From an uncultured Chthonomonas sp. (GTDB taxonomy: Bacteria; Armatimonadota; Chthonomonadetes; Chthonomonadales; CAJBBX01): a stretch of 64,000 bases of DNA. The position numbers and the translations under genes are program-made. Positions 29,464-44,583 of the stretch are shown here, one piece after another. Every line of letters begins with the position of its first letter. The stretch's first letter is position 1. The notes beneath the pieces are model-generated. The model was not told the origin of the DNA. It saw only the letters and a list, made by a program, of their open reading frames with translations, and searched no databases. The stretch lies in contig CAISJD010000201.1 in assembly GCA_903885605.1 (NCBI GenBank), positions 1 to 64,000 of the forward strand, in the 5' to 3' direction.

Positions 29464-30261
29464 ATGGCGCAGAGCATTCACTCGACGGCCGTCGTCCACC
29501 CGGGAGCCTACCTGGCGGACAACGTGACCGTCGGCCCCTACTGCGTAATCGACCACGAAGTCCAGATCGGCGAAGGCACGACGCTGGAGAGCCATGTAAC
29601 GGTCATGCCGTGCACGCATATCGGCAAGCACTGCAGCATCTGGCCCGGCGCCGTGCTGGGCGGGGCTCCGCAGGACCACAAGGACAAGGGGCATCGCAGC
29701 TTCCTCGTGCTTGGGGACCACAACATCGTGCGGGAGTGCGTCACGCTCCACCGCGCCGTGGGCGACGGCAACTACACGCGCATCGGCAACGACAACATGT
29801 TCATGGCCTATGCGCACGTGGGCCACAACTGCGAGATCGGCAACGGCAACACCCTCTCCAGCTATGTGGGCCTCTCCGGCCATGTGCTGGTGGAGGACAA
29901 CACCGTCTTCGGCGGCATGACGGGCGTGCACCAGTTCTGCCGCATCGGCAAGCTGGCCATGCTGGGCGGGCTGAGCAAGGTGAACCAGGACGTCCCTCCG
30001 TTCATGCTCTCCGACGGCGTGCCGGCCCGCGTCATCGACCTGAACAAGATCGGCATGCGTCGCGCCGGCGTCCCGCCGGATGTTCGCACCACCCTCCGGA
30101 TGGCCTATAAGCTCATCTACCGCTCGGACCTGAACCTCTCCCAGGCCATCGCCCGGATCGAGGAGGAGCTGGAGAAGAGCGAGGAGCTGGACCATCTGAT
30201 CGCCTTCATGCGCGGCACGCAGGCCGGGTTTGCAGGCAGGGGCGGCCAGCGCCGCTCCTGA
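29464..30261 (+). CDS. lpxA: UDP-N-acetylglucosamine O-acyltransferase
   Basis: LpxA catalyses the first step of lipid A synthesis, moving a 3-hydroxyacyl chain from ACP to UDP-GlcNAc. The 265-residue protein starts directly with hexapeptide repeats (HSTAVVHPGAYLADNVTVGP), has the catalytic histidine H121 in AHVGHNCEIG, the substrate loop GGAPQDHKDKG at 66-76, and the C-terminal helical ACP-binding part. It begins four bases after the fabZ stop and ends five bases before lpxB. Length and motifs are canonical, so function is secure. Confidence 0.96.
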   Translation: MAQSIHSTAVVHPGAYLADNVTVGPYCVIDHEVQIGEGTTLESHVTVMPCTHIGKHCSIWPGAVLGGAPQDHKDKGHRSFLVLGDHNIVRECVTLHRAVGDGNYTRIGNDNMFMAYAHVGHNCEIGNGNTLSSYVGLSGHVLVEDNTVFGGMTGVHQFCRIGKLAMLGGLSKVNQDVPPFMLSDGVPARVIDLNKIGMRRAGVPPDVRTTLRMAYKLIYRSDLNLSQAIARIEEELEKSEELDHLIAFMRGTQAGFAGRGGQRRS

Positions 30262-30266
30262 GCAAC

Positions 30267-31625
30267 ATGCGCGTCGAAACCGCAGGGGCGCCCACCGGAA
30301 GCGTGGTCCTCGTCGCCGGAGAGCCGTCCGGCGACGCGGTGGCCGCGGAGCTTGTGCGCGCCTTGCGGCGTCGTCGGCCGGAGTTGACCTTCTGGGGCAT
30401 CGGCGGGCCGAAGATGGCCGAGGCCGGTGTGGAGCTCTTGTTCAACTGCAAGGAGTGGGCGTCTATCGGCGTGGTGGATGCCCTCCGCCTGGTCCCGCGG
30501 CTCGCGTGGCAGGTGATGCCGGCGCTGGTGGGCGAGATCCGCCGCTGTCGCCCCGCCGTGGTGGTGCCGATCGACTTCGGCGCCTTCAACATGGGCCTTG
30601 CCCGCAGGCTGGCAGGCTGGGGACCGCCCGTCGCCTACTACTTCCCGCCCGGCTCCTGGCGCAAGTCGGGGACCGTCCCACCGGAGATCGGCCGGCTCTG
30701 CAAGGCGATCATCACCCCCTTCCCGTGGTCCGAGGGGCGCCTTCGGGCCGCGGGTGCAAACGCGCACTTCGTCGGGCACCCGCTCGTCGATCTGGCCCGC
30801 CCCTCGCAGAGCCGCGCGCAGTTCTCTCGAGAGCATGGAATAGAGGCCGACCACCCGGTGGTGGGCCTGCTGCCCGGTAGCCGCGGCTTCGAAATCCGCT
30901 ACAACCTGCCCGCCATGCTGGCCGCGGCGTGGCTCATCTGCGACGAGATGCCCCAGGTGCGCTTCGTGATCGGGCTGGCGCCGACCGCCGACCCCTCCCG
31001 TGCCGAGGCCATGATCCGCCTCGCCAACGCCGAACATGGCGGGCCCAAGGCGCCCCGGTCCCCTGCCGAGAGGTCAGGACCCAAGGCTGTGCGGGCGCCG
31101 CGGGCGGCCCTGGCTGCGGCCGCGGGGGGATCGTTGCCCAACGATGTCATCACCGATGCACGGTCGCTGGGCGAGCCCCGGTTCCGGGTCGCCGTTCCCA
31201 GCCCGGACGCGCTTCCGGTCGTCATCACGCAGGGGAAGACCTACGATGTGATAGCCTCGTCGGACGTGCTGCTGGCCTGCTCCGGCACCGCGACGTTGGA
31301 GGCCGCCATCATGGGGACGCCCATGGCAGTCCTCTACAAGCTCTCGCCCATCATGGAGGTGGAGGGCCGGCTACGCGGGCTGCACAAGCGCCTGAAGCAC
31401 ATCGCCATGCCCAACGTGGCGGCCGACAGGACCATCGTGCAGGAGTACCTGCAGGGCGCCGCCACTCCCGAGGCCATGGCCCAGGAGATGCTGCGATTGC
31501 TCAAGAGCGGCGAGGCGCGCTCCCAGATGCGCGCCGAGCTGGCTCAGGTGCGCGACATGATGGGCGCGCCGGGCGCCTCGGACAGGGCAGCGGGTATCGT
31601 ATTGGAGTGCGCCGAGCCGGCCTGA
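30267..31625 (+). CDS. lpxB: Lipid-A-disaccharide synthase
   Basis: LpxB (GT19) joins UDP-diacylglucosamine and lipid X to give the lipid A disaccharide. Motifs include AGEPSGD at 17-23, FWGIGGPKM at 42-50, the membrane-facing GPPVAYYFPPGSW, GLLPGSR at 200-206, and CSGTATLEAAIMGTPMAVLYK at about 338-357. At 452 residues it exceeds the usual ~380; the excess is a Pro/Ala/Arg-rich insertion at about 254-305 between two Rossmann elements. Weak variations (FNCKEWASIGVVD in place of the usual MG-x-x-EV) suggest a divergent clade. It lies in the lpx run five bases after lpxA. Confidence 0.88.
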   Translation: MRVETAGAPTGSVVLVAGEPSGDAVAAELVRALRRRRPELTFWGIGGPKMAEAGVELLFNCKEWASIGVVDALRLVPRLAWQVMPALVGEIRRCRPAVVVPIDFGAFNMGLARRLAGWGPPVAYYFPPGSWRKSGTVPPEIGRLCKAIITPFPWSEGRLRAAGANAHFVGHPLVDLARPSQSRAQFSREHGIEADHPVVGLLPGSRGFEIRYNLPAMLAAAWLICDEMPQVRFVIGLAPTADPSRAEAMIRLANAEHGGPKAPRSPAERSGPKAVRAPRAALAAAAGGSLPNDVITDARSLGEPRFRVAVPSPDALPVVITQGKTYDVIASSDVLLACSGTATLEAAIMGTPMAVLYKLSPIMEVEGRLRGLHKRLKHIAMPNVAADRTIVQEYLQGAATPEAMAQEMLRLLKSGEARSQMRAELAQVRDMMGAPGASDRAAGIVLECAEPA

Positions 31626-31650
31626 CCGGCGGCGACGTGAACGGAGCAGC

Positions 31651-33456
31651 ATGGGCGAAGAACAGACCGGCGCCGCGCCGCAGGCTAATGACGAACGTGA
31701 GATCCAGGCAAGGCTACTGGCATACCTGACGCCCCACCGGCGGGTGATGTCGATCGGGCTCCTCTGCGCCGCTGCGGTCGCGGGCCTCACCGCGCTCATA
31801 GCCTATGCGGCCAAGCCCACCATCAATGCCATGGCCGGCGACAACGTGGGTCGGCTGAACTTCATCTGCATCATCGTGGTCGGCGTCTTCCTGCTGAAGG
31901 CCGTGTTCACCTACGGGCAGACCTTCTACCTCTCCATGGTCTCCCAACGGGTGACCACCCAGTTGCGGGACGACATCTTCGGCCACCTGCACAGCCTCTC
32001 GCTCTCGTTCTTCAACCAGCGGCGCACGGGCGCGATCATGTCCGCGCTAACGAACGACATCCCGGTGCTGCAGAATGCCACCATGAGCATACGGGATGTG
32101 GTCGCCGCGCCGCTGAACGTCGTCTTCGCGCTCGGGCTGCTCTTCTACCAGAGCTGGCGGCTGACATTGGCGGCGCTCATCGTCGTTCCGCTCATGGGCT
32201 TCGTCATCTCGCGGATCGGCAAGCGCATACGCCGCATCTCGGACCTGGTGCAGCTGAAGCTGGCCGACGTGACGACCATAGCCGAGGAGACCATTTCGGG
32301 CATTCGCATCATCAAGTCCTTTGCTACAGAGACCCACGAGATCAACCGCTTCGCGGAGGAGAATGCGCGGACCTATGAGGCGGTGCTGCGCGGCGTTCGC
32401 CAGAGCGCTCGCCTACGGCCCGTCATCGAGTTCCTGGGCGCCTTCGGCATCGCGCTGGTGCTCTTCCTGGGCGGCAACGAGGTGGTTCAGAACGCCCGAC
32501 TGGTGAGCCTGGGCAAGCCGCCACTGACCCGGCTCGACCTGGGCGGCATGCTGATGTTCGTCCTGGCGCTGCAGCAGCTCGCCCGCGCCGTCAGCGATAT
32601 CGGCAGCATCAACAACACCCGGCAGCAGGCCTTCGCCGCGGCGGGGCGCATCTTCACGGAGATACTGGACCAGGAGACCGCCGTGAAGGAGGCGCCGAAC
32701 GCCGAAGCCATGCCCCGCATCAACGGCCATATTGAGTTCAACAAGGTCGGCTTCGCATACAACGACGACGCTCCGGTGCTGGCCGACATCACCTTCACCG
32801 TGCAGCCCGGCGAAGTGGTGGCGCTGGTGGGCCACAGCGGCGCCGGCAAGAGCACGGTCGTCGACCTGATCCCACGCTTCTACGATGTCACGCAGGGCTC
32901 CATCAGCGTCGACGGCCGCGACATCCGCTCCGTGCAGTTGGAGAGCCTACGCAAGCAGATCGGGATTGTGCCGCAGGAGACGTGGCTCTTCGCCGGAACC
33001 CTGCGCGACAACATCGCCTACGGCCGCCGCGACGCCACGGACGCCGACGTGCGCGCAGCGGCCAGGGCAGCCAACGCCAACTTCATCGATACGATGCCGG
33101 ACGGCTTCGACACCGTGGTGGGCGAGCGCGGCGTGCGGCTCTCCGGCGGCGAGCGCCAGCGCATCGCCATCGCCCGGGCCATCCTCATGGATCCGCGCAT
33201 CCTCATCCTGGACGAGGCCACCTCTTCGCTGGATGCCTCGTCCGAGTCGCTGGTCCAGGCCGCGCTGGAAGACCTGATGAAGAACCGCACGACGCTCGTT
33301 ATCGCGCATCGGCTCTCTACCATCCTGGGCGCCGACCGGATCGTGGTGCTCGACCGCGGGCGCATCGTCGAGACCGGAACCCATACCGAGCTGCTGGCCC
33401 AGGGCGGCATCTACTCGCAGCTCTACGAGAAGCAGTTCCGGGCCGAGACCGCATGA
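31651..33456 (+). CDS. msbA: MsbA-type lipid exporter ABC transporter
   Basis: This half-transporter has six membrane helices (about 30-310) fused to an ATPase. Walker A is GHSGAGKST at 394-402, the signature LSGGERQR at 498-505, Walker B ILILDE at 517-522, and the switch IAHRLST follows. The homodimer would flip lipid A-core across the inner membrane; the genomic context, directly after lpxB, favours MsbA over a drug exporter of the same family. The stop overlaps the start of the next gene as ATGA, so the acyltransferase below is co-translated with it. Confidence 0.9.
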   Translation: MGEEQTGAAPQANDEREIQARLLAYLTPHRRVMSIGLLCAAAVAGLTALIAYAAKPTINAMAGDNVGRLNFICIIVVGVFLLKAVFTYGQTFYLSMVSQRVTTQLRDDIFGHLHSLSLSFFNQRRTGAIMSALTNDIPVLQNATMSIRDVVAAPLNVVFALGLLFYQSWRLTLAALIVVPLMGFVISRIGKRIRRISDLVQLKLADVTTIAEETISGIRIIKSFATETHEINRFAEENARTYEAVLRGVRQSARLRPVIEFLGAFGIALVLFLGGNEVVQNARLVSLGKPPLTRLDLGGMLMFVLALQQLARAVSDIGSINNTRQQAFAAAGRIFTEILDQETAVKEAPNAEAMPRINGHIEFNKVGFAYNDDAPVLADITFTVQPGEVVALVGHSGAGKSTVVDLIPRFYDVTQGSISVDGRDIRSVQLESLRKQIGIVPQETWLFAGTLRDNIAYGRRDATDADVRAAARAANANFIDTMPDGFDTVVGERGVRLSGGERQRIAIARAILMDPRILILDEATSSLDASSESLVQAALEDLMKNRTTLVIAHRLSTILGADRIVVLDRGRIVETGTHTELLAQGGIYSQLYEKQFRAETA

Positions 33457-34190
33457 GCGACGAGGCCGCCCCCCGACGAGCCGACGGCGGCATCGACCGG
33501 GGCCGCAAGCAGGCACTCCGCGCCGAGCTCCTGAGCCTGCTCCTCTACTCCGTGGCGCGGCTCATCGGCCTCACGGCCCGGGTCCGCTTCGAGGGCTTCG
33601 AGCGGATCGCGGAGCAGCAGGCCAAAGGCAAGGGCCTCATCCTCGTGACGTGGCACGGGCGCACACTGATCGCGGCCAACATCTTCCGCAACCTGGGCTA
33701 CTGGGCCCTCATCTCCCTCTCCCGCGACGGCGACATGCAGAACCGCATCTTCCAGCGGTTCGGGTACCGCACGGTGCGGGGCTCGACCAGCCGAGGCGGC
33801 GTACGCGCCACGCTGCAGCTGGCCCGGAACATCCGAGAGGGCGGAGTGCTGGCCTTCACCCCGGACGGCCCCAAAGGCCCCACACACAAGGTGCAGCCCG
33901 GCACCATCTTCCTGGCGCAGCGCAGCGGATGCCCCATCCTGCCGGTGGGGATCGCCGCGAGGCCCCGGACGCTGGTGAAGAGCTGGGACCGCTACATGGT
34001 GCCCGGCCTCTTCGCCCGGGCCACATTCGTGGTAGGCGAGCCGATCTCCGTGCCCGAGGACGCCGACGACGAGGCCAAGGCCGCCATTGCCGAGGAGCTT
34101 GAGCGTGCCATGAACCGCATGGAGAAGCGCGCCGAGGAGATGCTGGGCTTCACCTACCCGGCCGAGTTCCGCCTTACAGCAGGCCGGTAG
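33453..34190 (+). CDS. Lysophospholipid acyltransferase-family protein (DUF374)
   Basis: This 245-residue protein has one hydrophobic N-terminal segment and the DUF374 acyltransferase core. The usual H-x4-D box appears as LVTWHGRTLIAAN, followed by SRDGDMQNRIFQRFGY, RGSTSRGG and FTPDGPKGPTHKVQPG, which match DUF374 proteins found in lipid A operons. It may add a secondary acyl chain to lipid A in place of LpxL/LpxM, but acceptor and donor are unproven. The canonical LPLAT acidic residue is replaced in this family by the WHGR arrangement. Start ATG 33453 overlaps the msbA stop by four bases. Confidence 0.85.
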   Translation: MSDEAAPRRADGGIDRGRKQALRAELLSLLLYSVARLIGLTARVRFEGFERIAEQQAKGKGLILVTWHGRTLIAANIFRNLGYWALISLSRDGDMQNRIFQRFGYRTVRGSTSRGGVRATLQLARNIREGGVLAFTPDGPKGPTHKVQPGTIFLAQRSGCPILPVGIAARPRTLVKSWDRYMVPGLFARATFVVGEPISVPEDADDEAKAAIAEELERAMNRMEKRAEEMLGFTYPAEFRLTAGR

Positions 34191-35102: not shown

Positions 35103-35116
35103 GGGTTCGGCAAATA

Positions 35117-35150
35117 GACGGGAGGCGCCCCGAATGGAGCGCCTCCCGTC
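35117..35150. terminator. Bidirectional terminator between dprA and the cytochrome operon
   Basis: GACGGGAGGCGC (35117-35128) and GCGCCTCCCGTC (35139-35150) form a perfect 12-bp stem with a ten-base loop. It lies in the 79-base gap between two convergent genes and is followed by TTGT on the plus side and by TATTT on the minus side, so it can serve both operons. T tracts are short. Confidence 0.8.
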
Positions 35151-35181
35151 TTGTACAGCTACCGGTCCCGGCGGTCGGCTC

Positions 35182-36630
35182 TTAGAGCTCGCCGGCCTCC
35201 GAGGTGCGGCCCTTCTTCGCGTCGAACTGCAGGACGGCCTTGATCTGCGCGGGGCTGAGCTTGACGCCGCTCATCTTGGTCGCGCCGATGTTGTCCAGGT
35301 TCAGATTGGCCTGGGTCAGCAGGTAGCGGGTGTAGACCGAGTTATGGACGCCGAAGCTACCGTCGCGCAGGACGAAGTAGTAGTTGTGCCGTGCGCGCTT
35401 GACTTCGATGGGCACCAAGGCCTGGCTCGGGGCGGTCTTGCCCACGGGCACCAGCGACGTGTAGTCCCAGAGGTCCGGGTCGCCGAACTTGGTGCGCGAC
35501 CAGTTCTGCAGCCGGGTCCGAAGGGTGACCAGCTGGGCCTCGATGGCACCCCGGATGGCGTACCGGGCGGCTGCATCGCCGGGCGTATGGCACGGGGCGC
35601 AGCTGACATCGAAGGCTGTCGTCATGGTGTGCTTGCTGTTGGGCATATGGCAGTGGGCGCACTGGCCGGCGGCCGAGGCGTGGGCCGTCTGGCGCACGAC
35701 CGGGGCGTTGGGCAGCTCGGAGCCGGTCATACCCATGAGCATGTTGTACTGGTTGCTGTCATGGTATGTGGGTCGAGCCGTGCTGCTGGTCAGTACGGCA
35801 TCGGTGTTGTTTCCGCCGCGCCCGTTGTGGCAGTTAGCGCAGGAGTGGTTGTAGGTCGTGTAGGCCTTGACCAGGGCGCCCGGGGCCACCTGCGTGGTGT
35901 CCGCGTTGGTCTCGGCGTAGCGGAGGTGGGCCTGCTTGCCGTTGGACCACATCATGTGGGTGGTGACCTTCATGGGATCGTGGCAGTTGGCGCATGAGGC
36001 CGTCTCTTCGCAGGCCTCGGTGGCCTCCTTGTACTCAGTCATCTTCTCGGTGGAGAGCGCGAGGATGGCCGTGTCGATCTCATCCGCGGTGGCGCCGGCC
36101 GTCAGCTTCGCGTCGATCTGGTCGGCGCGCAGGGCGGCGCTGTGGCACCGGAGGCAGGTCTTGCTGGCGCCTGCCACGGCGTCTTCGACGATATGCGCGT
36201 GGGGCGAGTTCTTGAAGTCCGACGCCATCGGCCCGTGGCACTGCCCGCAGACGGCGGCGTTGGAAAGCCTGGGATGGGTCAGGATGTTCTCTTCGCTCGG
36301 CGCGGCCTGATGGTTGCTGCTGGGCCCGTGGCACTGCTCGCAGCCCACGCCGATCTGGGAGTGCTTCGTGCCCTCAAAGCCGGCGAAGTCCACCTTGGGC
36401 GCACCGTTCACACCTGCCTCATGGCAGTTCTTGCAGTTCGCCGAGCCGATGTACGAAGCGCCCTTCTGGCCTGCGGGAAGCAGCGCCAGGAACTCCGCCG
36501 AGACGCCGGGATCGGGGTCCGGCGGCGGCGTGATGGGGCCTCCCCCACCGCCACAGCCTGCCAGTACGAGCATGGCCCCGGTAAGCGCCACACCAGTCGC
36601 CATGCTAGCGATAAGCCAAGACCTATGCAT
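35182..36630 (-). CDS. Octahaem c-type cytochrome lipoprotein
   Basis: Eight CxxCH haem-attachment motifs are present in order: CKNCH, CEQCH, CGQCH, CLRCH, CANCH, CANCH, CAHCH, CAPCH. The N-terminus is a lipoprotein signal ending LAGC followed by a glycine run and a Pro/Asp linker, so the protein is probably tethered to the outer membrane. Many extra histidines can serve as distal ligands. It carries electrons; the partner is probably the porin and decahaem cytochrome encoded just upstream in the same direction. It could be the surface-exposed (MtrC-like in role, not sequence) or the periplasmic partner. An octahaem reductase of the hydroxylamine/tetrathionate type cannot be ruled out. Confidence 0.88.
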   Translation of the reverse strand: MHRSWLIASMATGVALTGAMLVLAGCGGGGGPITPPPDPDPGVSAEFLALLPAGQKGASYIGSANCKNCHEAGVNGAPKVDFAGFEGTKHSQIGVGCEQCHGPSSNHQAAPSEENILTHPRLSNAAVCGQCHGPMASDFKNSPHAHIVEDAVAGASKTCLRCHSAALRADQIDAKLTAGATADEIDTAILALSTEKMTEYKEATEACEETASCANCHDPMKVTTHMMWSNGKQAHLRYAETNADTTQVAPGALVKAYTTYNHSCANCHNGRGGNNTDAVLTSSTARPTYHDSNQYNMLMGMTGSELPNAPVVRQTAHASAAGQCAHCHMPNSKHTMTTAFDVSCAPCHTPGDAAARYAIRGAIEAQLVTLRTRLQNWSRTKFGDPDLWDYTSLVPVGKTAPSQALVPIEVKRARHNYYFVLRDGSFGVHNSVYTRYLLTQANLNLDNIGATKMSGVKLSPAQIKAVLQFDAKKGRTSEAGEL

Positions 36631-36705
36631 CGGTCCTGCCCTCCTTCAGGGGCTTAGATGGTTTGAGGCGCGGGTTGCGCGGCCCCGTTGTGTTGCCGTG
36701 TTGCC

Positions 36706-38376
36706 TTAGAATGTTGTGGAACCGGAAAGACGGACGATCGTTGCGCGGTAGTCGAGCGTATCGGCAACCTTGTCCTTGTAGGTCAGCGGAGCGACGAGCA
36801 GGCCGAGTTCGCTGCAGTCGTTGAACCGGCGGCGGAGCGTCAGGGTCAGCTCACGCCCGTGGATGTTCGCCTCAGGAAGCAGGAGCGGGTTGTCGTTGGA
36901 GACGAACCAGTCGGTGTAGGTGGCGCTGACCCACATGTGCGGGTCAACCGTCCAGGAGAGCCCGGCCACGGCGGTCTGGCTGTCCGGGCCGAACATAGCC
37001 GACGTGGGCCAGTCCGCGATCTCGGTGCGGAGCTTGAGGCTCTCGAAGGCGTATTCGCCGAAGGCGACCACCTTGGGCCCGAGCTGGAGGGTGCCGCCGG
37101 CCTGCAGGGCCGATGCGGCGGAACGGGCGTAACGCTCTGCGTTCTCCTGCACCTTGTACGAGCCCGCCAGGTAGCCGGTGGCGTTGGCAGGGCCGGTCTC
37201 CATGCGGGCGGAGACGTTGGACCGTCGATGCCAGTAGAGCGACCGGGTGTCCTCCTGTGCGGCGGTCGGCGCACCGCCCAGCCACTGGGAGCCGGCCTTG
37301 AGCGTGATCATGGTCTGGCGGCTCAGGCGGCCCCGGAGGCGTCCGTCCAGGGTCACCCAGCGGGGCACGTCCACGTAGTCGCGGGTCTCGTTCAGCCGCA
37401 TGATCTCTCGGCTGCGGAGGCCTACCTCGGCGTTCCAGTTGGTCCAGCGCTTTTGCAGCCTGGCTGCGGCGCCCTGGTTGCGTGTGACGGCCATGGTGGC
37501 GGGCGCCGTGTTCCCGATGGTCTCGCTGGTGGCGTCCAGGCTGAGGTCGCCGAAGCGCCCCAGGGCGGCGTCGGCCATGAGCCCGGCGGTCTCGACGGTG
37601 GCCTGGGGGAGGGCCGCCTGGCGAATGAGCGTACGAGAGTAGCTGCCTCCCGCGTCGACCGACGGCGTCGCCTGAATGATGTACGAGAGAGTGGCCTGCT
37701 CCACGGTGGCGGAGGGCAGCACCATGGTGCGGTCGGTGAACGCGGTGCTGGAGTAGCCACCGGAGACGAAGCCGCGGCCCGCCTTGCCGTACGCCTGGAC
37801 GTCGAGGTAGCGGGAGCGCTGGTACTGGGCGGCGCGGGGCACGCCGAACGTCTGCGTCTGCGCCTCCATGGTGTAGGACGAGGCGATGACGAACGACGGG
37901 CTGATCCGCTGTGCCAGGCTCCAGCCTGAAGCCTTCCGCTCACTCTCGCCCTGCGGCTCGGGAGTGTCGGGCAGATACCGGCTACGTGAGTAGAAGGCGT
38001 CGGCGCGAAGGCGGCCGAACATCTCGTCCGCGTTGGCGCGGTAGTAGTAGTCATCGGCGCCGACGCCGCGCAGGGTGATGCTGCCCTGTCCGCTGCCCCA
38101 GCCCGTGCGCGAGCGCAGGCTCAGCTCCTCGATGAAGAGAAGCCGCGGCGGAGTGGCGTAGCGGCGGAGGGTGTTCTGGTTGCCCGAAAGGCCCAGATCG
38201 CCGTAGCCAAGGGTCAGGACGCCCGCCACGGGCAGGAGCGGCTTGGCCTTGGCCTCTTCGGTCTTCTGCTCTTCCTCCGCGGGGGCCTTATCCTGCGCCC
38301 ACGCGGCCCCGCATGGCGCCACGACAGCGGCGGCGGCGGCCATCACGAGCAGTTCACGTACCCACGTTCTCCTCAT
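36706..38376 (-). CDS. Outer-membrane beta-barrel protein, MtrB-like by context
   Basis: The 556-residue product has a signal peptide at about 1-27 (ending AAWAQ), a short charged linker (EEEQKTEEAKAK), then alternating polar/hydrophobic strands through to the C-terminal GSTTF with terminal Phe, an outer-membrane barrel signature. Size allows roughly 20 or more strands. Flanked by two multihaem cytochrome genes in one operon, it is the best candidate for the barrel that sheaths a cytochrome through the outer membrane, as MtrB does for MtrA. MtrB itself is larger (~700 residues) and has an N-terminal CxxC that I do not see here, so the assignment rests on context. ATG 38376 has GGGAGG ten bases upstream. 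Confidence 0.75.
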   Translation of the reverse strand: MRRTWVRELLVMAAAAAVVAPCGAAWAQDKAPAEEEQKTEEAKAKPLLPVAGVLTLGYGDLGLSGNQNTLRRYATPPRLLFIEELSLRSRTGWGSGQGSITLRGVGADDYYYRANADEMFGRLRADAFYSRSRYLPDTPEPQGESERKASGWSLAQRISPSFVIASSYTMEAQTQTFGVPRAAQYQRSRYLDVQAYGKAGRGFVSGGYSSTAFTDRTMVLPSATVEQATLSYIIQATPSVDAGGSYSRTLIRQAALPQATVETAGLMADAALGRFGDLSLDATSETIGNTAPATMAVTRNQGAAARLQKRWTNWNAEVGLRSREIMRLNETRDYVDVPRWVTLDGRLRGRLSRQTMITLKAGSQWLGGAPTAAQEDTRSLYWHRRSNVSARMETGPANATGYLAGSYKVQENAERYARSAASALQAGGTLQLGPKVVAFGEYAFESLKLRTEIADWPTSAMFGPDSQTAVAGLSWTVDPHMWVSATYTDWFVSNDNPLLLPEANIHGRELTLTLRRRFNDCSELGLLVAPLTYKDKVADTLDYRATIVRLSGSTTF

Positions 38377-38408
38377 GTTGTTTGGACCTCCCTTCGCGCC
38401 GTAGCGGC

Positions 38409-39461
38409 CTAGCGTACAAGCAAGTTGGGGTCGCTGTTCGACCCGTGAAGCGCGGCATGGCATCCCGAAGCCCAGCAGGTCTGGCCCGGGTAGTGCGTGG
38501 CGTTCTTGTCCGTGTGGCACTGGTTGCAGAGCCCACGTGAGAAGGCGCCCAGCATCTTCGGGTTGGTGGCTCCGTGGGGCTTGTGGCATTCGATGCAACC
38601 GTCGCCGGAAGCTCCGGTGACCGGATCGTGCTGGTACACGAAGGGACCGGCCACTTCGCGATGGCATGTGGCGCAGACCTGCGTCGGGTTCTTCAACCCG
38701 ACCCGCATGGAGCCCTTTCGAAGGCTGGTCCGGGTCGGATGCGGCTCATGGCAATCGCTGCAGGTCATGCGGCCTTCGGGCACGGGATGGTGGTACGGCT
38801 GGCGGAACTGCGCGACGTCGGCCTTGTGGCAGGAGGCGCAAAGGTCGGCCTCATGGTCCTTGAGAAGGTGCTGCGTCTCCTTCACAGCCACCGCGGTGGG
38901 CTTGCGGATGCTCTGGGCGTCGCGCGTGGCCCGGGCGGCGGGATCGGCCTGCTTGGCATCCTTGTGGATGAAGTGGCAGGAGATGCAGGAAATGTCGCCG
39001 CGAGCATGGGACGACTTCTTCCAGTGTGCCTCGGACATCGTCCGGGAGTGGCAACGGAGGCAACTGGCGTTCACGTCGGCCGCGGAACTCTTGGAGGGCG
39101 CGAAGATGTACTTCTGAATCTCGCCCTCCTCCTGGTGCTCAAGGTGGTTCTTGCCGGGTCCGTGGCAGGACTCGCAGCCACGGTGGTCGCCGGGTAGCTT
39201 GGGGTCGCGAACGTACTGGGCATGGGGAGAGGCTTCGTAGCTCTCCATGTACGCGGGATGGCATCCGCCGCACGTCTTCTCGCCCAGATAGTCCTCAGCC
39301 GCGGCGCCCGCGTGCAGCGCCACAGGGAATGGCGCCTTCTTGGGGCCGGTCGGCTTGGAGGATGACGCCTGACCAACTAGGGACACGCCGGCCAGTGCGG
39401 CCATGGACAACGCCATCGCTACTGAGGGCCAGGCCCGCAGCCAGTGCTTGATGTGCATCAT
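38409..39461 (-). CDS. Decahaem c-type cytochrome, DmsE/MtrA family
   Basis: The protein has a signal peptide at about 1-32 and then nine CxxCH motifs (CGGCH, CESCH, CLRCH, CISCH, CASCH, CSDCH, CATCH, CIECH, CNQCH) plus a tenth, wider CWASGCH near the C-terminus. Ten haems in ~350 residues with the ending CWASGCH-x-x-x-HGSN is what I recall for DmsE/MtrA-type periplasmic decahaem cytochromes, which form the wire inside MtrB-type barrels. It is the first gene of the three-gene minus-strand operon, with a good ribosome site (GGAGG and AAGGAG) and a candidate promoter at 39544-39573. Electron donor and final acceptor are unknown. Confidence 0.9.
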   Translation of the reverse strand: MMHIKHWLRAWPSVAMALSMAALAGVSLVGQASSSKPTGPKKAPFPVALHAGAAAEDYLGEKTCGGCHPAYMESYEASPHAQYVRDPKLPGDHRGCESCHGPGKNHLEHQEEGEIQKYIFAPSKSSAADVNASCLRCHSRTMSEAHWKKSSHARGDISCISCHFIHKDAKQADPAARATRDAQSIRKPTAVAVKETQHLLKDHEADLCASCHKADVAQFRQPYHHPVPEGRMTCSDCHEPHPTRTSLRKGSMRVGLKNPTQVCATCHREVAGPFVYQHDPVTGASGDGCIECHKPHGATNPKMLGAFSRGLCNQCHTDKNATHYPGQTCWASGCHAALHGSNSDPNLLVR

Positions 39462-39659: not shown

Positions 39660-41573
39660 CTAGGGCCAGAACTCGTAGGTCTGGACGTTCAGGACCATGC
39701 CGAGAAGCGTCCAGCTACAACCGACCGCGAACTCGCCCAGCATAAGCCCGAAGAAGAAGAGCGTGGCGGCCCGGTAGCCCGCAAGGCCGCGCCACTTCAG
39801 GACGGCGCCCTTGGAGAGGCAGCCGATGAGGATGGGTAGCCATAGGTTCGCCATGCCCCAGCTGTTGGCGGCGGCATAGGCCAGCGGATGGAGCGGCAAG
39901 CCGGGGAGGCACTGGCGCAGGGCGCCCAGCGTTGCCGCGACCGCGCAACCGGCCAGCATGGCCATGCGGTCGCCGGGCATGGGAGGCGCCGGGCTGTTGA
40001 GCCATGTTGAGAGGTTCACGCTGAAGGCCTCCCGCGCGTAGCCGACGCCCCACATGTTAACTGAGGCTGTGGCGGCTCCTACGCGGTAGAAGCCATGCAG
40101 GAAGACCGCCCAGCAGATCGGCACGGCCACCAGCCCCGCCAGTGCCACGGCGAAGGCCATGGCTCGGCGGTCGGCCTCGGCATGGCCGGCCACCTTCAGG
40201 GCCTCCAGCGCGTGCGGCATGGGGTGTCCCCGATAGGCGCGGCTCGTCCAGTGGAGCAGGGCGAACATGCCCAGCGTCGGCTTGTCGAACGCCTCGGCGC
40301 CCAGGTTCCGCACGAGGGCGTTGACCGGGCCCATCTGGTGCATGTCGTGGACAGGGAAGCCGAACTCGGCGCGGATCCGAGTGATGAGCACCGAGAGCGC
40401 ACCGAAAAGCGTCAGGAAGAGGGCCGCCACCCAGGGCTTCATGCCCGCCGCCACAAGGAAGCCGAAGAGGAGGCAGACGGAGACGACCAGGCCCGCGGCC
40501 GCGGCACGGGTCGACCGAGCCTCGGCTCCGCCGCCCGCCGCCGAGCGCCACACCGCCGCCAGTTGCGCCCGGAGCCGCCACGCCGCAGCAGCGAAGACCC
40601 ACATATAGGCGCCGAACGCCTGCGAGTCGGCGTAGGGGGCGCGGCTTTCCGGCGGCAGCCCCATGTTCGCCACGACGAGCAGCTCGGCCCGGTACAGGAG
40701 ATAGAAGAGGCTCAGCGAGGCGCTCAGGTCCAGCGGCATCAGGAAGCCCAGCGTGACGGCGAAGAAGTAGAACGCCACCGTGATCGTGGCCACGGGTTGC
40801 ATGGGGCCTGAGGGGATCAGCAGGATGTACTGCCGCTTGATGGGGATCGCGGGGATCGCGGGATAGAGCGTGTTGAGGCCGTTCAGCAGCGTGACGCCGG
40901 CGGCCACGGCGAAGCCGATCCAGAAGACGCGGCTGGAGTAGAGCGCCCGGGGATGCTGGGCCATGGCCAGCGGTAGCGCGACGATGGGAAAGGTGAGCCG
41001 CTCGTTCTCGGCCCAGGCCCGCCGGAGCAGCGCCGAGGCGCAGAGCATGGCGAGCATCGCCGCCCAAAGGACCAGCGTCCAGACGAGCACGGGGAGGGCC
41101 CACGCACGCATCACCTCGGGCTTCCAGAAGCTGGAGTTGCCGCGGAAGAAGCCGCTGACGGCCTCCTTCGGCCCCACAAGCAGCCACGGCGGCATGGCGC
41201 CGTCGAAGAGGGTGGACCAGCGGTTGGCCTTGTCGGCGAAGTAGGCCGGATAGCCCAGCTCGGTGACCAGGATCGACTGCAGGTCGCAAGAGAGCATCGC
41301 CGAACCCACCGAGACCATGGCGTAGACAGCCAGCGTCTCCAGCCCGGTGAGGGCCGCCTGCGGACGGCGCGCGCGAAGCCAGAGGTTGCCCAGGCTCACC
41401 AGCAGCAGCAGGTAGACGGCGTGGCAGAAGGGCGCGGCCAGCGTCACGAAGGAGTAGCGGACGATCTCGCCCCAGAAGACCCAGTGCGCGGACAGCCAGA
41501 TGAGCGCCACGCCCAGGATCAGGGCGCGGGCGCGGATGGGACGTGAGGCTGCTGCGTTTGGGTGCTCTGCCAA
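39660..41573 (-). CDS. Polytopic membrane protein, DUF6785/DUF6784 family
   Basis: The 637-residue protein has at least 12 hydrophobic helices from residue ~18 to ~630 and short loops such as ENERLTFPIVALPLAM, an arrangement I associate with DUF6785-type proteins of Planctomycetes and Armatimonadota and, more loosely, with OPT-family transporters. Transport is likely but the substrate is unknown. Translation appears to start at TTG 41573 (MAEHPN); GGAGG lies nine bases upstream, inside a GCGCCC/GGGCGC hairpin at 41579-41596 that could partly hide it. The gene lies downstream of the MFS gene in the same direction. Confidence 0.75.
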   Translation of the reverse strand: MAEHPNAAASRPIRARALILGVALIWLSAHWVFWGEIVRYSFVTLAAPFCHAVYLLLLVSLGNLWLRARRPQAALTGLETLAVYAMVSVGSAMLSCDLQSILVTELGYPAYFADKANRWSTLFDGAMPPWLLVGPKEAVSGFFRGNSSFWKPEVMRAWALPVLVWTLVLWAAMLAMLCASALLRRAWAENERLTFPIVALPLAMAQHPRALYSSRVFWIGFAVAAGVTLLNGLNTLYPAIPAIPIKRQYILLIPSGPMQPVATITVAFYFFAVTLGFLMPLDLSASLSLFYLLYRAELLVVANMGLPPESRAPYADSQAFGAYMWVFAAAAWRLRAQLAAVWRSAAGGGAEARSTRAAAAGLVVSVCLLFGFLVAAGMKPWVAALFLTLFGALSVLITRIRAEFGFPVHDMHQMGPVNALVRNLGAEAFDKPTLGMFALLHWTSRAYRGHPMPHALEALKVAGHAEADRRAMAFAVALAGLVAVPICWAVFLHGFYRVGAATASVNMWGVGYAREAFSVNLSTWLNSPAPPMPGDRMAMLAGCAVAATLGALRQCLPGLPLHPLAYAAANSWGMANLWLPILIGCLSKGAVLKWRGLAGYRAATLFFFGLMLGEFAVGCSWTLLGMVLNVQTYEFWP

Positions 41574-41663: not shown

Positions 41664-42914
41664 CTATGCGGCGGGGGTGGCCTGCGGGCCTTCCGTTGAC
41701 CGGAGGCGGCGTACCACCCAGATGCCCACTGTCAGCAGCACGGCGTTCAGCACGAAGGGTAGGGCCCGGTTGCTCTGCGACAGCATCCCCGCCACCCAGC
41801 CGAACGGCGTGGTGCAGGCGATCACCGTGAGGTGCGCCATGGCCACGATGCGGGCGCGCTCCCGGGCGTCCACGTTCACCACCGCGAGACGCTCCACCTG
41901 CGTGGCCACCACCGAGTAGCACCCGGCCTCCAACACCGTGCTGAGCAGCAGCCAGCCGTAGCCCCTCTCCGGGACGTTGATGAGCACGATCTGGCTCACC
42001 GCGTAGCCTGCGAAGGCCAGCATCATGGGGCGCCCGAAGCAGACGCCCCGCAGCCTCGGCACCACGAGGAAGAGGAAGCCCAGCATGATGAGCGACCGCG
42101 CGAACGGATAGAGCGCGATGTGCCCGGCGGGGATGTGGATGCGCTCGGTGACGATGATCGACCAGAACGTCCCCTGCACCACCGTGACGATGCTCACCAC
42201 CACCATGAGCGCGATGGTGAGGAGCGTATGGGGCGCCGAGCGGATCTGCCGCAGGACGCCCCGGTACTCGCCGAGGAGCGACACCACCGAGCGCCCCCGC
42301 GTCTCCGCCATCCGGACGGCGCCCTGCCGCGTCTCGGAGACCATGCCGTTGAGGACGATGAACTTGGTGGTCATCATCACGCAGGCCAGCACGTACATGC
42401 CCCGCACCGAGGGCACCAGCGTGAAGTGCGTGATCAGCACGCCCGCCACCGGCGCGAAGAAGACCGACATCTGCCCGGCGATGAAGGAGAGGGCGTAGAT
42501 GTGCATCAGGTCTTCGGGATCGCTGTCCTCCACCAGCAGGCAGTTCCAGGAGATGTCGGGCACCTTGCGGAGGCTGTTCACCAGCCCGGCGGCGATGAAC
42601 CATCGGATATCCTGCGCACATGCCCAGAGCAGGCAGGGGATCGACCAGGCGAGGATGTCGAACACCAGCGTGGCGCGCTTGCGACCCATCTTGTCGATGA
42701 TGACGCCGGCCAGCAGCGCCATCACCACCTGCCCTGCCATGGCCACGCTGGTGACCATGCCCACCTGGCTGTCGCGCAGGCCCAGCGCCAGCATGTAGAC
42801 CGAGGCGTAGGGCGCGAAGAGGTTGAACGGGATGCCCCAGAGCGGCTCCGTGATGATCGCTCCGCGGGCATTCCCCCGAAGCCCGCGCAGGGTGCCGACG
42901 AGGGTTTCAGACAA
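41664..42914 (-). CDS. Major facilitator superfamily transporter
   Basis: This 416-residue inner-membrane protein has about 12 hydrophobic segments. The loop between helices 2 and 3, IIDKMGRKRATLVFD, carries the MFS motif A (G-x3-D-x2-G-R-x2). It is not close to NarK/NasA nitrate or nitrite carriers by motif, although it overlaps the upstream nitrite/sulfite reductase gene by eight bases (42907-42914) and so may be translated with it. A role in carrying a product or substrate of that enzyme is possible but unproven. Confidence 0.88.
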   Translation of the reverse strand: MSETLVGTLRGLRGNARGAIITEPLWGIPFNLFAPYASVYMLALGLRDSQVGMVTSVAMAGQVVMALLAGVIIDKMGRKRATLVFDILAWSIPCLLWACAQDIRWFIAAGLVNSLRKVPDISWNCLLVEDSDPEDLMHIYALSFIAGQMSVFFAPVAGVLITHFTLVPSVRGMYVLACVMMTTKFIVLNGMVSETRQGAVRMAETRGRSVVSLLGEYRGVLRQIRSAPHTLLTIALMVVVSIVTVVQGTFWSIIVTERIHIPAGHIALYPFARSLIMLGFLFLVVPRLRGVCFGRPMMLAFAGYAVSQIVLINVPERGYGWLLLSTVLEAGCYSVVATQVERLAVVNVDARERARIVAMAHLTVIACTTPFGWVAGMLSQSNRALPFVLNAVLLTVGIWVVRRLRSTEGPQATPAA

Positions 42915-44583
42915 GGCCGGAGGGCTTCCGCGGTTGTATCTGAAGCCGGCGTTCCGGCATCCGGATTTGCAGCAGGCGCTCAGCCCTGGCCGGGGCGGCG
43001 GACGGCTCGTTCAGGAAGGCGGCCAGTTCGGCGTCAGTATGGCGATCCACGAACGAAGCGAAGGCCTCGCCCTGACCGCAGCGTTCCGAGAAAGCGGTCA
43101 GCAGACGCTCGAGGGCCAGATGCACGGTCCCGGCGGGCGCCTTGCGGAGGATGGGCCGGGCGAAGCGCGCGTCGGCGCCCACGCGGCCGCCCAGGCTGAT
43201 GTCGTAGGCCTCGAGCCGCTCGTCGCCCACTCGCACCACGCAGCCCTGCAGCCCGATGTCGGCGATAGCGTGGCGCCCACAGCCGTTCGGGCAGCCGTTC
43301 ACGTTGATCCGCAGCGGCTCGGAGCCGGGCGACGTGGCCTCCAGATGCTCCACGATGGCCGACAGCCGCTGCTTCGTCTCGGTCAGGGCCAGGTTGCAGA
43401 ACTCGGAGCCGGTACAGGCCACTGCCTCGCGTCGGATGGCCGAGGCGTCCCACCGCAGTCCCGCCTGGCCCAGGGCGACCAGGGCCTCGTTGAGGCGATC
43501 CGTCGGGATGTGCGGCACGATGAGGTTCTGCTGGTTGGTGGCGCGTAGTTCGCCCGCGCCGAAGCGATCAGCCACGTCGGCAGCGGCGTCCATCTGATCG
43601 GCGCTCAGGCGGCCCGTGAGCACGGCGAGGCCCACCCAGTAGAGGCCGGGCTGCTTCTGCTGATGGATGCCCAGGTGGTCGTCGCCGCCGGCCGCCGGCC
43701 CCATGTCGGGCAGCGCGGGCGCGGGACGGAAGCCGAGCCGGTCGCTCAGCTCGTCGAGGAAGCGCGCGGGCCCCCAGTCCTCCATGAGGAACTTCAGCCG
43801 CGCGTGGTTGCGCCGTTCGCGGTAGCCCTGGTCGCGAAATATCTGCGCCACCGCCACGCAGGCGGCCGTCACCCGGTGCGGCGGCAGCAGGATGTCGAGC
43901 CACTGCGAGAGGCGGGGCTGGGCGCTGAGGCCGCCACCGACGCGCAGGTGGTATGCCACGCCGTCGGGCGCCTCGGACTGCAGCGGATGCCCCTGCGGCA
44001 GGCGCACCGCGCAGGCGCCCACGTCATTGATCTCCGGCAGGTGGCAGTGCAGCGGACAGCCGGCCACGCTCATCTTGTACTTGCGCGGCAGGTTCGAGAA
44101 GTCGCGGTTGCCGAGGAAGGCCTGCTCCAGCTCGGCCACAAGGCCGGAGGCGTCGCACAACTCGTGCGGGTCCAGGCCGGCCACGGGACAACCGAGGATG
44201 TTGCGGTTGATGTCGCCGCAAGCGCCCACAGTGGAGATGCCGACCGCGTCGAGCCGGGCGACGGCCTCGGGGATGTCGGCGATGGTGAGCCAGTGGAACT
44301 GGATGTTCTGCCGCGTGGTGAGATCGGCGATGCCCCGGCCGAAGTCGCGGGAGATGCCCGCCATGGCGGGCCACCGGGTCGCCGTGACGCCGCCTCCGGG
44401 GAGCCGCACGCGCATCATGAAGTGGCCGTCGCGCGGCTGGTGCTCGTAGACGCCGTACCAGCGCATGCGCAACATATCGTCGGGCGTGATGGCGTCGTAG
44501 CCGAGACGGCTGTAGCGGAGGAGGTCCGGCCAAACGTCCAGCGGGTCCTTGTCCAGCTTGATCTGCTCCACCGAGTTCGCCAT
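42907..44583 (-). CDS. Sirohaem nitrite/sulfite reductase, ferredoxin-dependent type
   Basis: The enzyme performs a six-electron reduction, either nitrite to ammonia or sulfite to sulfide, in the cytoplasm. The two-fold repeated ferrodoxin-like halves are visible, and the coupled [4Fe-4S]-sirohaem site is formed by C390, C396, C431 and C435 (CTGSEFC, NGCPNGCG). The N-terminal half has RQNIQFHWLTIADIP and GDINRNILGCP, typical of NirA-type proteins. At 558 residues it fits the ferredoxin-dependent nitrite reductase/NirA size. I lean towards nitrite because of the N-terminal features, but NirA and Sir cannot be separated safely by eye. No nitrate reductase or cys genes are nearby. Confidence 0.87.
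   Translation of the reverse strand: MANSVEQIKLDKDPLDVWPDLLRYSRLGYDAITPDDMLRMRWYGVYEHQPRDGHFMMRVRLPGGGVTATRWPAMAGISRDFGRGIADLTTRQNIQFHWLTIADIPEAVARLDAVGISTVGACGDINRNILGCPVAGLDPHELCDASGLVAELEQAFLGNRDFSNLPRKYKMSVAGCPLHCHLPEINDVGACAVRLPQGHPLQSEAPDGVAYHLRVGGGLSAQPRLSQWLDILLPPHRVTAACVAVAQIFRDQGYRERRNHARLKFLMEDWGPARFLDELSDRLGFRPAPALPDMGPAAGGDDHLGIHQQKQPGLYWVGLAVLTGRLSADQMDAAADVADRFGAGELRATNQQNLIVPHIPTDRLNEALVALGQAGLRWDASAIRREAVACTGSEFCNLALTETKQRLSAIVEHLEATSPGSEPLRINVNGCPNGCGRHAIADIGLQGCVVRVGDERLEAYDISLGGRVGADARFARPILRKAPAGTVHLALERLLTAFSERCGQGEAFASFVDRHTDAELAAFLNEPSAAPARAERLLQIRMPERRLQIQPRKPSGLV

Follow-up and report, generated by a model that had tools for sequence, protein, structure and literature searches.

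An Mtr-like outer-membrane electron conduit with an OcwA-type surface cytochrome predicted in Armatimonadota

A three-gene multihaem locus

Three adjacent genes of an uncultured Chthonomonas sp. raise the question of whether they encode a route for electrons across the outer membrane of a bacterium outside Proteobacteria, and whether such a conduit would be of a separate type. The genes reside in a 64,000-nucleotide stretch of DNA (the window), which is part of a 108.8-kb contig in a 5.6-Mb Armatimonadota genome. In this phylum, MtoA and MtoAB-like genes were reported in one MAG from Katase hot spring, and its members were proposed as iron oxidisers or reducers (PMC9671151). Outer-membrane cytochrome matches are known from a Fimbriimonadales MAG (PMC13055281), and freshwater Verrucomicrobia carry a novel porin-multihaem system (PMC5615132). 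A survey requiring mtrC located mtrCAB in three phyla and did not mention Armatimonadota (PMC8805035). In the literature searched, which consisted mostly of open-access papers, we saw no account of an OcwA-type partner, of the trio in its fixed order or of how widely it occurs. These features are what appears to be new here, and the MtoA/MtoAB-like pair in one Armatimonadota MAG was already known.

The first-pass annotation described a minus-strand operon with 18 haem motifs, and this layout is confirmed by the reading frames and by counts of ten and eight motifs in the outer two genes (Table 1). The intergenic gaps are 32 nt (decahaem/barrel) and 75 nt (barrel/octahaem), and each gene is preceded by a GGAGG-like ribosome site. 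For the barrel gene, the site AAGGGAGG lies immediately upstream of the start ATG at 38376. A longer barrel ORF reaching to 38667 was set aside because it overlaps the decahaem gene and the ATG at 38376 has its own ribosome site. Just past the octahaem gene is a stable predicted hairpin (-36.1 kcal/mol, z = -6.9), and the T-rich stretch that follows it is short and weak.

The decahaem protein carries nine CXXCH motifs and one CX4CH motif (CWASGCH), and the octahaem protein combines a lipobox, LAGC followed directly by GGGGG, with eight CXXCH motifs. Among the window's 219 six-frame ORFs (minimum length 100 aa), only one other CXXCH motif is present, so the occurrence of 17 in two genes is not due to chance. 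The barrel protein has a Sec-like signal, lacks CXXC and ends, as originally described, in Phe. All three proteins are 87-97% identical among congeners, one of which, JAPLCQ01, is a MAG from the water column of Lake Pavin.

Table 1. Positions of the trio, its associated elements and the upstream genes (window coordinates)
Feature	Position	Strand	Description
Hairpin	35116..35151	minus	Intrinsic-terminator-like, 16-bp stem; end of transcription unit
Octahaem lipoprotein gene	35182..36630	minus	482 aa, 8 haem motifs; predicted OcwA/OmhA-type surface cytochrome
Lipobox LAGC (Cys26), then Gly-rich tether GGGGGP	36553..36564	minus	Conserved in relatives
Beta-barrel gene	36706..38376	minus	556 aa, Phe last; predicted 26-strand MtrB-like sheath
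Decahaem cytochrome gene	38409..39461	minus	350 aa, 10 haem motifs, MtrA/DmsE/GSU2203-like; predicted periplasmic
DUF6785/DUF6784 membrane protein	39660-41573	minus	Directly upstream of trio
MFS transporter	41664-42914	minus	Upstream of trio
NirA-like sulfite/nitrite reductase	42907-44583	minus	3.4 kb upstream of trio

The decahaem cytochrome and the barrel

The decahaem protein is assigned by its sequence as an MtrA/DmsE homologue, in line with its initial description. It matches the DmsE family TIGR03508 with E = 2.4e-55 and 187.8 bits, slightly below the curated cut-off of 192.2, and the GSU2203 family with E = 9e-54, far below the curated cut-off of that family. Its sole strong relative of solved structure is MtrA (6r2q_A, for which the molecule name in the PDB record is wrong), with E = 1.5e-26 for the single sequence and 7.4e-49 as a profile. 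Among 20 decahaem relatives, every one of which matches the MtrA/DmsE family, none of the ten haem motifs varies, and 11 further His residues are kept in at least 17 of the 20.

The window barrel matches no Pfam or NCBIfam family and nothing usable in the PDB by sequence. It does not match the MtrB/PioB family (PF11854), which is matched by two of its 22 relatives (best 4e-5), and three relatives touch the GSU2204 family (1e-6). Because sequence searches gave nothing usable, the assignment as a barrel rests on structure and gene order. An AlphaFold2 model made from a five-sequence input has a mean pLDDT of 76, with most strands at about 90 or more, and contains 26 strands, as does the MtrB barrel (PMC7198977). 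When the whole PDB was searched with Foldseek, MtrB (6r2q_B) was the top match (E = 1e-10, TM 0.70 by query length), although an RMSD of 6.6 A makes this a match at the level of the fold. The runner-up was BtuB (E 1.5e-8, TMq 0.48). A relationship to MtrB is therefore indicated by the predicted fold and not by the family profile, and the large barrel on which the conduit proposal depends is present in the model. The barrel was also said to be smaller than MtrB and without its CxxC. Indeed, its precursor has 556 aa compared to 649 residues (6r2q_B), and CXXC is found in none of the 22 family members. The shorter barrel is not a narrower one, since its model has the same number of strands as MtrB.

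The octahaem lipoprotein

Profile comparisons identify the octahaem protein as a putative OcwA/OmhA-type cytochrome of the NrfA/MccA superfamily. Against the PDB, its profile places OcwA (6i5b, 3.2e-16) and OmhA (6qvm, 4.6e-16) on top, and the weak matches to MccA (1.2e-7), octahaem nitrite reductases and NrfA are far behind. Its eight haems align with OcwA haems 2-9, as judged from profile alignments and a reading of motif order, and a C-terminal GVHN motif is common to this protein and the OcwA/OmhA type. Helices are predicted near the C terminus at residues 350-382, 408-423 and 431-447. The AlphaFold2 model is poor outside these helices and its fold matches are weak, and we used only the helices.

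The third gene had been described as encoding a lipoprotein unlike MtrC, which holds: the lipobox is present, and none of 16 octahaem relatives matches the MtrC/OmcA family TIGR03507. Weak matches to PF22113 (MtrC domain II/IV) occur in five of the 16. The lipobox and the Gly-rich tether are conserved among the relatives, and the tether resembles the Gly-rich start of mature MtrC and OmcA.

Distribution and gene order

To define its distribution, 237 Armatimonadota genomes of at least 85% completeness were searched with the three protein profiles, yielding matches in 81 (decahaem), 64 (barrel) and 55 (octahaem) genomes. The octahaem gene is never found alone, as all 55 genomes also have the barrel and decahaem genes. 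The order decahaem, barrel, octahaem on one strand is seen for 53 of the 56 octahaem copies, with the remaining three located at contig ends, and the order in the window is thus shared with related genomes. This fixed trio spans approximately 30 genera. A simple p-value for the linkage (8e-45) is too strong since it ignores shared ancestry, and barrel identities of approximately 30% across many families show that the trio has been retained for a long time. The distribution also answers an objection foreseen at the outset, namely that the octahaem protein might be from a reductase family whose members are never found with a barrel. This comes close to being true, as the superfamily is one of reductases, yet the branch found here is always paired with a barrel.

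Analogous loci of the Limisphaerales type (Verrucomicrobiota, n = 5) are ordered nonahaem, heptahaem DmsE-like, barrel. Their barrels have YRF at the C terminus and match no family. One Limisphaerales relative matches OcwA (1.6e-17) and also possesses the additional first haem of that protein, and the linked cytochromes of Limisphaerales and of one Armatimonadota family (f4) have nine haems. A clade of the surface cytochrome comprising all Armatimonadota was rejected (p-AU 0.017), as the nonahaem cytochromes of family f4 fall with those of Limisphaerales. A tree of 35 rows splits conduit-linked from unlinked cytochromes at 100/100. This tree was derived from a 45-row tree, whose root is weak, by removal of distant or long-branch rows, and OcwA itself is absent from the cytochrome trees. 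The split agrees with, but does not prove, a single origin of barrel linkage. We tentatively raise the possibility that Armatimonadota and Limisphaerales share one conduit lineage, characterised by a lasting union of an Mtr-type wire-in-barrel and an OcwA-type, potentially catalytic surface cytochrome.

Several unusual arrangements were observed during the survey. In five genomes from three other Armatimonadota families (one genome is a single contig), a GSU2203/DmsE-like decahaem domain and a GSU2204-like barrel are fused in one-chain ORFs of 973-1032 aa (L171:2324-5329(+), L172:1793-4891(+), L173:2254-5175(+), L174:2346-5273(+) and L175:2351-5278(-)). Each has an extra CXXCH motif inside the barrel part, and the last has a run of undetermined residues in its decahaem part. 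In family f6, an additional octahaem gene is located between the barrel and the OcwA-type gene (L064:10826-11941(+), L065:8786-9898(+), L068:7921-9033(+) and L179:8650-9780(+)). Two proteins encoded near conduit genes, of 637 aa with 28 CXXCH motifs (L078:8928-10841(-)) and 717 aa with 32 (L080:8636-10789(+)), have approximately one haem per 22 residues and might be long wires.

Host genome and neighbouring genes

Lpx-type genes, assigned by reading ORFs rather than by family search, appear to be present at 29464-34190 on the same contig and would suit a diderm organism. The genes for the DUF6785, MFS and NirA-like proteins were rejected as components of the system, since they adjoin the conduit only within the same genus.

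No match to NapC/NirT, NrfD, the cytochrome b of bc1 or a haem-copper oxidase was obtained in the window's genome, which is rated 100% complete, and the searches gave detections in control genomes. These absences are in line with an anaerobic life that depends on an electron sink outside the cell. Other cytochromes of this genome include an HAO-like octahaem protein (PF13447, E = 6e-28; L051:6788-8197(+), contig C25) and a small tetrahaem protein that is a possible periplasmic carrier. In addition, a 950-aa protein with three CXXCH motifs has a middle domain of the hydrazine-synthase-alpha type (PF18582, E = 8e-22; L054:4454-7306(+), contig C71). Raw CXXCH counts across the genome are hardly above the reversed control and were used solely for locating clusters.

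Proposed function and alternative explanations

Our best reading is that the locus encodes a conduit of the Mtr type that carries an OcwA-type surface cytochrome and exports electrons in an apparent anaerobe. The decahaem protein would be held in the 26-strand barrel and form an insulated haem wire there, like MtrA within MtrB, an arrangement suggested by homology and the predicted fold. From its lipoprotein signal, the octahaem protein is predicted to be displayed on the outer face, and electrons would leave the cell by passing from the decahaem protein to this surface cytochrome. We consider it likely that the trio encodes an outer-membrane electron conduit with a surface cytochrome, because the MtrA homology, the MtrB-like barrel model, the conserved lipoprotein signal and the fixed gene order all favour it. 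Further support comes from the kinship of the octahaem protein to surface EET cytochromes, the analogous Limisphaerales sets, the split in the cytochrome tree and the failure to find a haem-copper oxidase, cytochrome b of bc1 or NrfD. The original proposal of a porin-cytochrome conduit outside Proteobacteria is thereby supported. Counted against it are the poor quality of the octahaem model outside its C-terminal helices, the weak fold matches of that model and the failure to find a NapC/NirT donor in the genome. That the barrel instead transports something else, with the periplasmic cytochromes as chance neighbours, would agree with the lack of a significant sequence match between the window barrel and any porin-cytochrome family. 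This explanation is highly improbable given the MtrB fold match with its 26 strands and a gene order that is fixed over so many genera.

That electrons flow specifically outward to minerals, humics or shuttles is favoured by a modest balance of the evidence. The superfamily includes nitrite, hydroxylamine and sulfite enzymes, and a soluble substrate is therefore possible. The barrel and wire might feed a surface enzyme that reduces extracellular nitrite, hydroxylamine or a sulfur oxyanion instead of minerals, comparable to DmsEFAB for DMSO. Thermincola uses OcwA as its terminal reductase at the cell surface, and this protein has a slow, weak activity on nitrite and hydroxylamine as well as open haems 2 and 5 (PMC6703420, PMC7096707). 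By sequence, these two haems are the counterparts of haems 1 and 4 in the octahaem protein, and the weak matches of its profile to MccA, octahaem nitrite reductases and NrfA point the same way. However, the nearest solved relatives, OcwA and the Carboxydothermus surface cytochrome OmhA, both act in EET at the cell surface (PMC6703420, PMC7829351), and the enzymes score much lower. Eight further His residues of the octahaem protein are invariant or nearly so, a number sufficient for all-bis-His ligation, although OcwA demonstrates that His number is not decisive for haem ligation (PMC6703420). Likewise, outside this genus the NirA-like gene does not adjoin the trio, and it lends no help to a surface enzyme, which we regard as unlikely.

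Conduits of the PioAB/MtoAB type are able to run inward, which also counts against outward flow, and Mtr-type complexes are in principle reversible. An inward conduit would oxidise extracellular Fe(II) or another donor and deliver electrons to the periplasm. In keeping with this, one Armatimonadota MAG has an MtoA that was positioned close to PioA/MtoA and taken as evidence of Fe(II) oxidation (PMC9671151). However, MtoAB and PioAB have no surface cytochrome (PMC7096707), whereas one is obligate here, and neither the haem-copper oxidase nor the bc1 complex that would use incoming electrons was found in the genome. Inward flow is accordingly judged quite improbable, and outward export remains our preferred reading.

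If correct, this reading would place a mostly uncultured, carbohydrate-degrading phylum among the bacteria that respire outside the cell, with the gene set present in about a quarter of its surveyed genomes (55 of 237). Surveys of mtrCAB that demand an MtrC homologue (PMC8805035) would overlook such an octahaem-type conduit. The findings also suggest that the wire-in-barrel core is conserved and the surface cytochrome on it can be exchanged as a module, and that diderm conduits, too, make use of OcwA-type cytochromes. Should the lineage shared with Limisphaerales be real, the Mtr route of diderms and the OcwA route of Gram-positive bacteria, which have been described as independent, would be joined, and the conduit could reduce minerals as well as extracellular nitrogen or sulfur oxyanions.

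Comparison with known systems

MtrCAB of Shewanella (PDB 6R2Q) likewise combines, in a single gene cluster, a decahaem cytochrome homologous to the one described here, a 26-strand barrel and an outer lipoprotein cytochrome. In the Armatimonadota system, however, the shorter barrel has no CXXC and no detectable sequence similarity to MtrB, and the surface cytochrome has eight haems and belongs to a superfamily other than that of MtrC/OmcA. MtoAB and PioAB share the decahaem protein and the 26-strand barrel but lack the outer cytochrome, whose gene always follows the barrel gene here. For GSU2203/GSU2204 of Geobacter, the decahaem protein scores equally with GSU2203 and DmsE, and three barrel relatives touch GSU2204, but the scores are far under the curated cut-offs and the window barrel has no CXXCH.

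Geobacter Pcc (OmbB-OmaB-OmcB) and PCC3 resemble the trio in their general plan of a porin with inner and outer cytochromes. They differ in having an octahaem inner and a 12-haem outer cytochrome, or very haem-rich partners (PMC7096707, PMC5566968), and the trio has no match to the Pcc/PCC3 families. DmsEFAB includes a linked surface molybdoenzyme, whereas none is present among the trio neighbours (DUF6785, MFS, NirA-like and DprA). The porin-MHC clusters of Verrucomicrobia (PMC5615132) contain a porin, a periplasmic multihaem protein and sometimes an extracellular one, and, going by their description, they are possibly the same as the Limisphaerales form found here. Their periplasmic partner has fewer haems, their gene order is different and their barrel is larger (approximately 740 aa).

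OcwA of Thermincola and OmhA of Carboxydothermus, both from iron-reducing Gram-positive bacteria, resemble the octahaem protein in their haems and their C-terminal helical region, but they are monoderm proteins without a tie to a barrel, and OcwA has one extra N-terminal haem for a total of nine. The suggestion of a separate conduit type consequently holds for the third subunit, which is of the OcwA/OmhA type, and less so for the decahaem protein and barrel, which are distant Mtr relatives. Overall, the conduit shares the working principle of Mtr and falls outside MtrCAB by its third subunit and its barrel sequence.
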